Shown: one piece after another, positions 20,783 through 59,902 of the stretch
Layout: every line of letters begins with the position of its first letter
Numbering within the stretch: position 1 is the stretch's first letter
Assembly: GCF_011759705.1 (NCBI RefSeq)
Contig: NZ_JAAOZF010000001.1
Span: 1,547,152 to 1,611,151 of the forward strand
Length of the DNA: 64,000 nucleotides
Direction of reading: 5' to 3'
Source of the DNA: Microbacterium ulmi
GTDB taxonomy: Bacteria > Actinomycetota > Actinomycetes > Actinomycetales > Microbacteriaceae
Made by a program: the position numbers and the translations under genes
The notes under the pieces: generated by a model
Databases searched by the model: none
Seen by the model: only the letters and a program-made list of their open reading frames with translations
What the model was told of the DNA's origin: nothing

Positions 20783-20933
20783 CGCCGCGCCGCGGGCGCT
20801 GCCCGTCGCGGGCGCAAGGCCCGTCGCGGCGGGCGCGGGCCCGTCGCGGGGTGCTGGCCCGTCGCGGGGCGTTGGGCCGTCGCGGGGCGTAGCCGGTTGC
20901 GGTCCCTCGGCTGGTGCTGTTTCGCGCGGCGCC

Positions 20934-21026
20934 GCGCGCGGCGCGGTTCCGTTCCCGCGTTGGCTGTTGTTTCGTGCATCTGCGGCGTATGTATGTGCCG
21001 CGGATGCACCGAACTGGCGCGGTCGG
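20934..21026. repeat. Hairpin repeat, copy 1
   Basis: This is a 93-bp unit. Its hairpin has arms 20974-20986 (GTGCATCTGCGGC) and 20997-21009 (GCCGCGGATGCAC) around the loop GTATGTATGT. The flanks GGTTCCGTTCCCGCGTTGGC and GAACTGGCGCGGTCGG are shared with copies 2 and 3. Confidence 0.85.
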
Positions 21027-21136
21027 GGAGTGCGCCGGAACCCGTGCGCCCCGACCCCGTGCGCACGCCGCGACCAGTCCCCGTAGCCACGCCTTGAGCC
21101 ACCTCGGCTGCTGTTGTTTTGTGCGGCGGCGGCGCG

Positions 21137-21229
21137 GCGCGCGGCGCGGTTCCGTTCCTGCGTTGGCTGTTGTTTGGTGCGGCCGCGGCGTATGTATGTG
21201 CCGCGGATGCACCGAACTGGCGCGGTCGG
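21137..21229. repeat. Hairpin repeat, copy 2
   Basis: Arms are 21177-21189 and 21200-21212 with the identical loop GTATGTATGT. Flanks match copy 1 except for single substitutions. Confidence 0.85.
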
Positions 21230-21317
21230 GTGAGTGACTGGGGGGTCAGTCGCGCTGGGGTCGGCGGCGTCATGCCGGGGTGGTCAGGGCCAGTCCCGTC
21301 GCGGGTTGCCGCGCGCC

Positions 21318-21409
21318 GCGCGCGGCGCGGTTCCGTTCCCGCGTTGGCTGTTGTTTCGTGCAGCCGCGGCGTATGTATGTGCCACGGCTGCACCGAACTG
21401 GCGCGGTCG
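21318..21409. repeat. Hairpin repeat, copy 3
   Basis: Arms are 21358-21370 (GTGCAGCCGCGGC) and 21381-21393 (GCCACGGCTGCAC), with the same loop. Both arms differ from copy 1 in a mutually compensating way (ATCTG/CGGAT against AGCCG/CGGCT). Confidence 0.85.
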
Positions 21410-21589
21410 CGTGCCCGCGCCGTCCCCGCGCCCGCGCCGAGCGCCGAGCGCCGTCCCCGCGCCGAGCGCCGAGCGCCGTCCCCGCGCCCGCGCCCAAACC
21501 CGCGCCCGAACCCGCGCTCGCTCCGAGCGCCGTCCCCGCGCCCAAACCCGCGCCCGCGCCCAAACCCGACAGATCGATACCTATCCGCA

Positions 21590-21595
21590 TAGGCT
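21590..21595 (+). promoter_or_regulatory. Probable -10 box for fhs
   Basis: TAGGCT occurs in CCGCATAGGCTTATCCC, about 38 nt before the fhs ATG. A GGAGGG ribosome-binding site follows at about 21621-21627. Confidence 0.45.
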
Positions 21596-21633
21596 TATCC
21601 CGGCGGGCGACGAGGCCCGACGGAGGGTCGCGC

Positions 21634-59073: not shown

Positions 59074-59100
59074 GTCCGCCCGGACGTCCTGGCACCGCAT

Positions 59101-59165
59101 CCGCTGCTGTTTCGCGCACCCGCGCCGCACAGATGCGCCGCGGGTGCACAGTTCAGGAGCGGTCG
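59101..59165. repeat. Diverged fourth copy of the hairpin repeat
   Basis: GCTGTTTCGCGCACCCGCG (from 59104) and CCGCGGGTGCAC (59138-59149) form a hairpin in the same context as the three copies at 20934-21409, with GCGGTCG at the right end. Stem bases differ but pairing is mostly kept. The rest of the 176-bp gap to the VapB gene holds nothing else recognised. Confidence 0.6.
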
Positions 59166-59249
59166 TGGGGCCGCCGTTGGCGCGAGGCGATGCGACGCCA
59201 AGCGGATGCGGCTGTTGACCGGTGATGAGTGATGCGTGATGCTTGATGC

Positions 59250-59477
59250 ATGCGGACGACACTGACGATCGACGACGACGTCCTCGCGGCAGCCAAGCAG
59301 TTCGCCGACTCGCGGGGGATCACGCTGGGGGAGGCGATCTCGCAGCTGGCGCGAGCGACGCTGACGGAGAGGCGCCGATTCGGGATGCGCAACGGGATCA
59401 TGCTGCTGCCGACCTCTCCCGACGCCGCACGTGCCACTGTCGAGGACGTCACGGCGCTGCAGGACGACGCGTCGTGA
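59250..59477 (+). CDS. VapB-type antitoxin
   Basis: This 75-residue protein has an N-terminal ribbon-helix-helix pattern (MRTTLTIDDDVLAAAKQFAD, then GITLGEAISQLAR). A C-terminal tail follows that would wrap the toxin. It overlaps the PIN-domain gene by 4 bp (GTGA), the usual antitoxin-first order with autoregulation. No clear Shine-Dalgarno precedes the ATG. Confidence 0.85.
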   Translation: MRTTLTIDDDVLAAAKQFADSRGITLGEAISQLARATLTERRRFGMRNGIMLLPTSPDAARATVEDVTALQDDAS

Positions 59478-59902
59478 CCACGCACCTCCTCGACGTCAAC
59501 GCCGTGATCGCCCTGATCGATCCGCTCCACGTCCACCACGACCGTGCGCATCGCTGGTTCGCAGCGCGCGGTTCCGCACCGTGGCACACGAGCCCGACGG
59601 TGCAGAACGGCGTCGTCCGGGTCGTGAGTCATCCGAACTATCCGAACACGCAGCCCGCGCCCGTGGTTCTCGCAAGCCTCGCGAGCCTCGTGGCCCGCGA
59701 GGACCACGTGTTCCTCGCGGATGCCGTGAGCCTGCTCGACGCGTCGGTGCACACCGAGCGGCTGCTCGCGAGCTCGCAGGTGACCGACACCTACCTGCTG
59801 CACCTCGCGGCCTCCAACGACGCGCTGCTCGCGACCTTCGACACCCGCATCGTCACGACCGCCGTGCCGTCGGGGTCGGACGTCGTGTTCGCGATCCCCT
59901 GA
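59474..59902 (+). CDS. VapC-type PIN-domain ribonuclease toxin
   Basis: This 142-residue PIN protein has the first acidic residue in HLLDVNAVIALID and later acids in VTDTYLLHLA and LATFDTRI. The second position reads SPTVQNGVVRVVSHPNY, where the canonical Glu is Asn/Gln. This QNG variant occurs in a distinct VapC subgroup and does not by itself indicate inactivity. It cleaves RNA when free of VapB. Confidence 0.87.
   Translation: MTTHLLDVNAVIALIDPLHVHHDRAHRWFAARGSAPWHTSPTVQNGVVRVVSHPNYPNTQPAPVVLASLASLVAREDHVFLADAVSLLDASVHTERLLASSQVTDTYLLHLAASNDALLATFDTRIVTTAVPSGSDVVFAIP

Follow-up and report, generated by a model that had tools for sequence, protein, structure and literature searches.

Our results suggest that the repeated hairpins in this stretch of the Microbacterium ulmi genome (the window, all 64,000 nucleotides of it) are scattered copies of a palindrome that bounds a gene for an uncharacterised nuclease-like protein, and that palindrome and gene belong to a so far undescribed selfish element. 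In the reading that we consider probable, the window hairpins are dispersed, locally amplified palindromes of a REPtron-like selfish system, whose AbiEi-Vsr protein would bind, cut and mobilise them. As judged from sequence, a palindrome-nuclease-palindrome cassette is present in M. ulmi and in other Actinomycetes, and lineages differ in the sequence of the palindrome. Elements resembling REPs are usually associated with tyrosine transposases of the RAYT type; in the present case, the place of the RAYT is taken by a nuclease-like protein unrelated to it. Among the papers listed by our searches of an open library, no title or abstract opening described these palindromes or AbiEi-Vsr proteins located between palindromes.

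The window hairpins are copies of a 70-bp palindrome

The original prediction described three hairpin copies with 13-bp arms around an invariant loop and a distant, diverged fourth copy. All four were recovered:

20957-21026, no strand assigned: palindromic element copy w1, the 70-bp core of the in-register repeat 20926-21027 (covariance-model E 1.3e-13; fold)
21160-21229, no strand assigned: palindromic element copy w2, with one mismatch and one G-T wobble in the inner stem
21341-21410, no strand assigned: palindromic element copy w3, from the repeat alignment and the covariance model
59097-59166, no strand assigned: diverged palindromic element copy w4, from the covariance model, ~24 nt past the stop codon of the upstream gene (our own ORF caller)
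20783-21633, no strand assigned: expanded intergenic region of ~850 bp between the genes for RecQ helicase and formate-tetrahydrofolate ligase

The first three copies align in register as 102-nt repeats (20926-21027, 21129-21230 and 21310-21411; 100, 94 and 92% identity to the first), with 13-nt arms and the invariant loop GTATGTATGT; the full unit, an imperfect palindrome of ~70 bp, is wider than these arms. Copy w4 was the top-scoring palindrome of the window in a palindrome scan. Allowing at most three mismatches, the stem pattern matched the window seven times (at the four copies, three being hit on both strands); the expectation from 100 dinucleotide shuffles was 0.00. The predicted folds of copies 1 and 4 are much more stable than those of shuffled sequences (z -4.56 and -4.28, respectively). 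The element had also been predicted to be neither a CRISPR nor a known riboswitch, and we rejected both assignments: 102-nt copies starting 203 and 181 nt apart, with further palindromes dispersed, are not regular short repeats with unique spacers, and the window has no match to any Rfam RNA family at gathering thresholds.

The remainder of the expanded intergenic region, at 20785-20900 and 21410-21570, is also full of short repeats of the GCCCGTCGCGG and CCCGCGCC types. Directly past the fourth copy lies a 75-aa ORF (59250-59477) with a weak DUF6364 match below cut-off, overlapped by a PIN-domain ORF (59474-59902); together, the two look like a toxin-antitoxin pair.

Copies in the genome, the genus and beyond

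A search for further copies, which the original prediction had proposed, was positive at both levels. A covariance model built from 19 M. ulmi copies (R1) located 22 places in the 3.5-Mb genome (E≤1), in clusters and singles: arrays at 201, 1541, 1568 (the window triplet), 2442 and 2444 kb, the rest being single copies. The copy at C2:601508-601577, on contig 2, forms an almost perfect palindrome, and a stretch of 390 bp in the 201-kb array is 88.7% identical to part of the array next to the nuclease gene, 2.2 Mb away. Within the genus, 26 of 119 genomes have an R1 match (E≤0.01). A genus-wide covariance model (R2) detected the element in 32 of 299 genomes and 20 of 85 genera of the family (E≤1e-4), and in 4 of 296 genomes sampled across the class, two of the four being outside the family. 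Named carriers confirmed with R2 include Microbacterium sp. SYP-A9085, M. fluvii, M. murale and M. arabinogalactanolyticum, as well as two Agreia genomes, one of them with a weak match (E 0.005). Searching contigs with an exact pattern returned 50 stretches. Ten of these match R2 (E≤0.01), all from Microbacterium, Agreia or Microbacteriaceae; the other 40 have no R2 match at this threshold and look like chance.

The recQ-fhs pair is separated by only ~90-115 bp, without an R2 element, in two other genomes (G016 and G012), as opposed to ~850 bp in the window, which shows that the M. ulmi interval has expanded. Regular arrays were seen elsewhere too: five copies form a ~166-bp array in genome G046 (L175, 1495-2228), and three or four copies lie ~140-235 bp apart in L143, L147 and L149. 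In G663, a 2.3-Mb genome from a different family within the class, R2 has two places (L239 and L241; four matches on two strands) with CTGGCGCA units.

Palindromes bound a nuclease-like gene

In several genomes, palindromes ~1140 bp apart enclose the same type of gene, ~0.95 kb long and encoding a product of ~317 aa. A motif scan placed the M. ulmi gene at C1:2443187-2444134, between the element arrays at 2442 and 2444 kb and ~0.87 Mb from the window triplet; in Microbacterium sp. SYP-A9085, elements likewise lie on both sides of the gene. Relatives of the nuclease are widespread: a profile found them in 111 of 119 genus genomes (E≤1e-15), often several in each, and a wider profile in 175 of 246 class genomes and 85 of 103 genera (E≤1e-12), the palindromes having been examined at only ~100 of these genes. 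Since the nuclease profile A5 was derived from genes adjacent to elements, counts are also given without the seeds.

We examined 30 and a further 40 nuclease loci among the matches listed in the genus profile search. R2 elements (E≤0.1) occur at 21 of the 30 best loci, 16 of them having elements on both sides, as compared to none of 29 recQ loci. In the 20 fetched loci of clade A, delineated by a protein tree (L275-L288 and L290-L295), R2 elements are present on both sides in 15, on one side in two and on neither in three; omitting the five profile seeds (n=15) leaves 10, two and three. The three loci without an R2 match (L281, L285 and L286) score only 7-10 with a palindrome finder that uses no family sequence.

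At a threshold score of at least 11, this finder detected palindromes on both sides of the gene in 20/30 and 22/40 nuclease loci. The controls reached this score in 5 of 29 cases for recQ, where only the downstream side was used, and in 2.3% of 600 shuffles. Two of the 29 recQ flanks score as high as 24 and 27, so strong palindromes occur elsewhere too. Speaking against the selfish-system reading, 28 of the 70 nuclease loci fall below score 11 on one or both sides; for one of these (L338), the script had no flank to score on the downstream side. Paired palindromes also occur in other nuclease clades, where their sequence is quite different. Outside the family, paired palindromes were found at 8 of 21 nuclease loci and not at the remaining 13, a count without a control at that flank length. 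Four loci were read in Tsukamurella tyrosinosolvens, where the genes are annotated as AbiEi family antitoxin domain-containing, DUF559 or hypothetical protein. Two have near-identical copies on either side (59 nt at 94.9% and 55 nt at 89.1% identity); of the other two, one has repeated G-rich words and one is without a clear palindrome.

Elsewhere in the genus, other palindromic or tandem repeats lie downstream of recQ (L246-L274, e.g. L249, L258 and L267). These may be dispersed palindromes of other nuclease clades.

The presence of the element and that of the gene are associated. A close nuclease was found in 14 of 26 genomes with elements and in 8 of 93 without (p 2e-6), and in 8 of 20 versus 8 of 93 once the six seed genomes are set aside (p 0.0013); the E-value cut used for a close nuclease also admits two clade B genes (L289 and L296). 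Two groups of genomes count against the selfish-system reading: the 12 of 26 element-bearing genomes without a close nuclease and the 8 with a close nuclease that have no R1 element.

A second nuclease gene of M. ulmi (G000, C1:2107821-2108780, locus L338) has an in-frame stop, which also counts against the selfish-system reading. It is flanked by other repeated words, of the GGTGGACTCGGCG type; these are not enriched in the window (14 matches versus 9.23 expected).

A common four-unit layout and lineage-specific dialects

Despite their divergent sequences, palindromes of different nuclease clades have an internal feature in common. A direct repeat at 19-bp spacing is present inside the arms, both of clade A palindromes and of those from the other clades taken together (self-identity at shift 19 of 0.495 and 0.529, respectively; 0.519 overall, against 0.25-0.33 at other shifts). 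The best shift was 19 in 99 arms and 20 in 17, making up 116 of the 123 arms that score at least 7, a score reached by 9 of 184 shuffled arms. Each palindrome is typically built from a pair of direct units at 19-bp spacing and, after it, the same pair in inverted orientation.

Palindromes on either side of one gene are more alike than those of different loci (k-mer similarity 0.347 versus 0.050), and the locus's own partner is the best match in 25 of the 40 loci having both. Across loci, palindromes are also the more similar the closer the proteins are in sequence (Mantel 0.474, 0 of 999 permutations, n=49). Copies dispersed at unlinked loci mostly show the dialect of the palindromes that flank their own genome's nuclease. 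Among 13 genomes, the best match of 44 of 51 dispersed copies (from 11 genomes) was the nuclease flank of their own genome; five of the remaining copies rank it second and two fifth. Window copies w1, w3 and w4 rank the palindromes flanking the M. ulmi nuclease first. The 51 copies were picked by hand from 141 places after thinning tandem copies, w2 being among those left out, and the test is biased in favour of M. ulmi, which contributed five flank palindromes where the other genomes contributed one or two.

Dispersed copies lie mostly past stop codons

Most copies are located shortly past stop codons, in many cases between convergent genes. According to our own ORF caller, 104 intergenic regions with elements comprise 51 convergent, 42 tandem and 11 divergent ones, as compared to 12, 47 and 21 among 80 neighbouring regions without an element (Fisher p 1e-6 for convergent). 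The element starts within 60 nt past a stop codon in 72 of the 93 convergent or tandem regions, and in single tandem cases it is nearer the upstream stop in 29 of 38. These counts derive from 141 places, leaving out a cut-off match (L156:1-57), three places inside ORFs and four at locus edges; the loci had been chosen for holding elements, and the comparison regions are their neighbours.

Such a placement fits a bidirectional 3'-end hairpin. It is also what gives substance to the strongest of the alternative explanations, namely that the hairpins are selected by the host as bidirectional terminators or stabilisers of mRNA 3' ends, that the cassette merely uses them as insulation, and that copies arise by ordinary recombination. 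The convergent excess and the proximity to upstream stop codons speak for this explanation. However, no T tract was seen in the window copies, and the family is confined to 26 of the 119 genus genomes at the R1 threshold. Moreover, terminators need neither a 19-bp layout, nor dialects that go with nuclease clade and genome, nor paired placement around one gene family. We therefore regard this explanation as unlikely, and prefer the selfish-system reading, under which copies would persist chiefly past stop codons and between convergent genes because a bidirectional hairpin there is harmless or provides a useful transcript end.

The nuclease genes themselves occupy few sites. Four neighbouring genes were checked: IMPDH, CNNM/CorC, TerC and the response regulator. 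Fifteen of the 20 fetched clade A nucleases lie between IMP-dehydrogenase-family and CNNM/CorC-family genes, and three lie between TerC-family and response-regulator genes. A single conserved site for 15 of 20 means that vertical inheritance explains much of the distribution. The IMPDH/CorC-family site holds the nuclease in 16 fetched loci, while in genome G003 the same site has a palindrome without the nuclease and in G012 a palindrome beside a GNAT acetyltransferase gene, again without the nuclease. Thus, palindrome and gene can part company.

An AbiEi-like head joined to a Vsr-like nuclease domain

Ten of the proteins align over most of their length, and towards the C-terminus they share acidic and basic residues that do not vary; the invariant positions include E205, D237, E248 and K254. 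Neither Pfam nor NCBIfam names a family for the nuclease (NCBIfam gave one irrelevant match, E 0.11), and a search of the PDB by sequence returned nothing. We rejected PF18741 as the nuclease domain, as it is absent from the Pfam matches. The AlphaFold model is confident (pLDDT 91.8). In this predicted structure, residues 6-197 match the AbiEi antitoxin and residues 7-215 match Rv2827c, while residues 200-312 match the homing endonuclease I-Bth0305I, NGO0050 and Vsr. The AbiEi match (6y8q) has a Foldseek E-value of 3e-4 and a VIA Z of 9.6 (rmsd 7.6). The C-terminal domain scores Z 8.0 against I-Bth0305I (3r3p; rmsd 2.7, 94 residues aligned), 7.2 against 3hrl and 6.2 against 1vsr, Z values that are middling. 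PADLOC AbiEi profiles match the N-terminus in all three proteins searched (best E 1.1e-6, 1.6e-12 and 4.4e-10), and Pfam AbiEi_4 matches (E≤0.1) only 10 of 34. The simplest reading of this predicted architecture is an AbiEi-type head that would bind the palindrome, joined to a homing-type nuclease that would cut it.

The antitoxin AbiEi is a repressor of its own promoter, where it binds to an inverted repeat (PMC3985639). This offers a second alternative: the palindromes might be operators of a nuclease-fused AbiEi-type autorepressor working in defence, with dispersed copies as decoys or passengers. The AbiEi profile matches speak for it, as does the location of the upstream palindrome, which ends ~90-220 nt before the nuclease start codon. 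Yet palindromes are about as frequent downstream of the gene (22/30 and 27/40 loci) as upstream (24/30 and 27/40), and by itself this explanation leaves 22 places in one genome unaccounted for. On balance, we find operators improbable, more so than host-selected 3'-end hairpins.

The cassette resembles AbiE type IV toxin-antitoxin systems in the N-terminal fold and in the profile matches, and AbiEi is known to bind an inverted repeat (PMC3985639). It differs in the added nuclease domain, in palindromes both flanking and dispersed, and in size: with palindromes ~1.1-1.2 kb apart around a ~0.95-kb gene, the unit is too short to hold an AbiEii toxin gene as well. With I-Bth0305I/Vsr homing endonucleases it shares the C-terminal fold and a single free-standing gene found at few conserved sites; here, in contrast, no intron, intein or phage setting was seen, and the predicted nuclease is fused to an AbiEi-like domain and bounded by long palindromes. 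The M. ulmi nuclease has no tblastn match in plasmids or phages, and we accordingly rejected either as its vehicle; two other family members match five and two plasmid records.

Compensatory changes appear across genomes

The original prediction held that the arms covary among the window copies and that the structure is therefore maintained. The first claim fails for copy 2, which pairs GGCCG with CGGAT (one mismatch and one G-T wobble); the second stands across the genus and not inside the M. ulmi genome. In 19 aligned M. ulmi copies, 74.3% of cells are paired (74.9% in shuffles), the covariation score is 0.098 (0.108 in shuffles) and six pairs have changed on both sides (7.6 in shuffles). 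We therefore rejected own-genome covariation as evidence for structure; the relaxed pairing in the M. ulmi arrays counts against the selfish-system reading. Compensatory changes become visible only once other genomes are added. In a genus alignment of 30 rows (A3: 23 of the 27 loci L063-L089 and seven M. ulmi copies, L075, L082, L086 and L087 having been left out by eye), both sides change in 25 of 31 pairs, and the covariation score is 0.435, compared to 0.185 (sd 0.013) for shuffled alignments and no more than 0.122 for slid versions.

Because the rows of A3 were picked by a model that rewards pairing, we also ran a half-site sequence search with four free bases, ignoring pairing. It gave 62 matches in 119 genomes versus 11 for the reversed pattern. 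In 27 of the 52 contexts with fetched DNA, the other arm's GC...GC frame is present, and 81 of the 108 free bases in these are complementary, as compared to 34 of 100 in the remaining 25; the 27 are not independent, since some copies are counted on both strands and two genomes contribute several copies each. This search, blind to pairing, supports strong genus-wide covariation.

Pairing could also be kept by a mutational process, the correction of quasi-palindromes by template switching, rather than by selection or a partner protein. In keeping with such a process, lineages differ in both arms at once, and the inner and outer words of an arm correspond to each other; still, it would not leave M. 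ulmi copies paired no better than shuffles, and it explains neither the placement around the nuclease nor the dialect match at unlinked loci. We give it slightly less weight than the operator explanation.

A proposed REPtron-like system with a different partner protein

REPtrons are described with many of the features seen here: short extragenic palindromes, inverted doublets, dispersed copies, a single palindrome-flanked gene, and a preference for convergent and unidirectional contexts (PMC3116915, PMC3733652). The elements thus have the REP character that the original prediction had envisaged, being dispersed extragenic palindromes found mainly in convergent and unidirectional contexts. The REP-associated transposase that it proposed to look for did not turn up: RAYT/Y1 (PF01797) is absent from the M. 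ulmi genome and from 26 genus genomes, 16 of them with elements, in a search that was positive in 5 of 14 control genomes. REPs are defined by a GTAG or CGTC tetranucleotide tag at one end (PMC3733652); such a word, on either strand within 8 nt of the end, occurs in only 8 of the 30 A3 rows and is not conserved. We therefore rejected RAYT/Y1-mobilised REPs and, on account of the missing transposase and tag, do not class the system as a REPtron in spite of its layout. For the same two reasons, classical REP or REPIN elements moved by a RAYT now lost or encoded elsewhere are a very remote prospect, even if dispersion and 3'-end placement are as in REPs (PMC3733652). The present system further differs from REPtrons in its partner, an unrelated protein of the AbiEi-Vsr-like type, and in the direct repeat of 19-bp spacing within each arm. 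MITEs and IS ends, too, are non-autonomous inverted-repeat DNA dispersed in intergenic space; that class is defined by target-site duplication and transposase-related ends, whereas here the palindrome itself is the end and no transposase was identified.

For the selfish system that we favour, a plausible course of events would be as follows. The AbiEi-like N-terminal domain would bind the four palindrome units, and the Vsr-like domain would cut at or near them. Break repair or some other copying step might then spread the palindrome, alone or with the gene, much as has been proposed for RAYTs and REPINs, or as homing endonucleases spread their genes. The system may even be class-wide, a selfish family of Actinomycetes in which an AbiEi head and a Vsr-like nuclease recognise and cut a lineage-specific, four-unit, 19-bp-spaced palindrome, so that either the whole element or the palindrome alone is copied into gene 3' ends, REPtron-like and of an origin independent of tyrosine transposases; this broader proposal is a serious possibility that we put forward tentatively. 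If it is true, many genes annotated as AbiEi antitoxin-domain or DUF559 would belong to the family. Should the nuclease indeed cut the palindrome, genes now labelled antitoxin, DUF559 or hypothetical would make up a family of mobile elements that carry their own recognition code, and the dialects would offer natural specificity pairs for testing DNA reading by AbiEi-type proteins and the spread of palindromes in bacteria.

Short motifs were also noticed between the upstream palindrome and the nuclease start (e.g. L278, L300 and L302), with TCCTCC(A/C)CAG at about -85 and TTGTCCAC at about -58. TCC[AC]CAG occurs 0.507 times per nuclease upstream region versus 0.010 per 250 nt in recQ loci, and TGTCCAC 0.232 times versus 0.005. 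Both resemble actinobacterial DnaA boxes.
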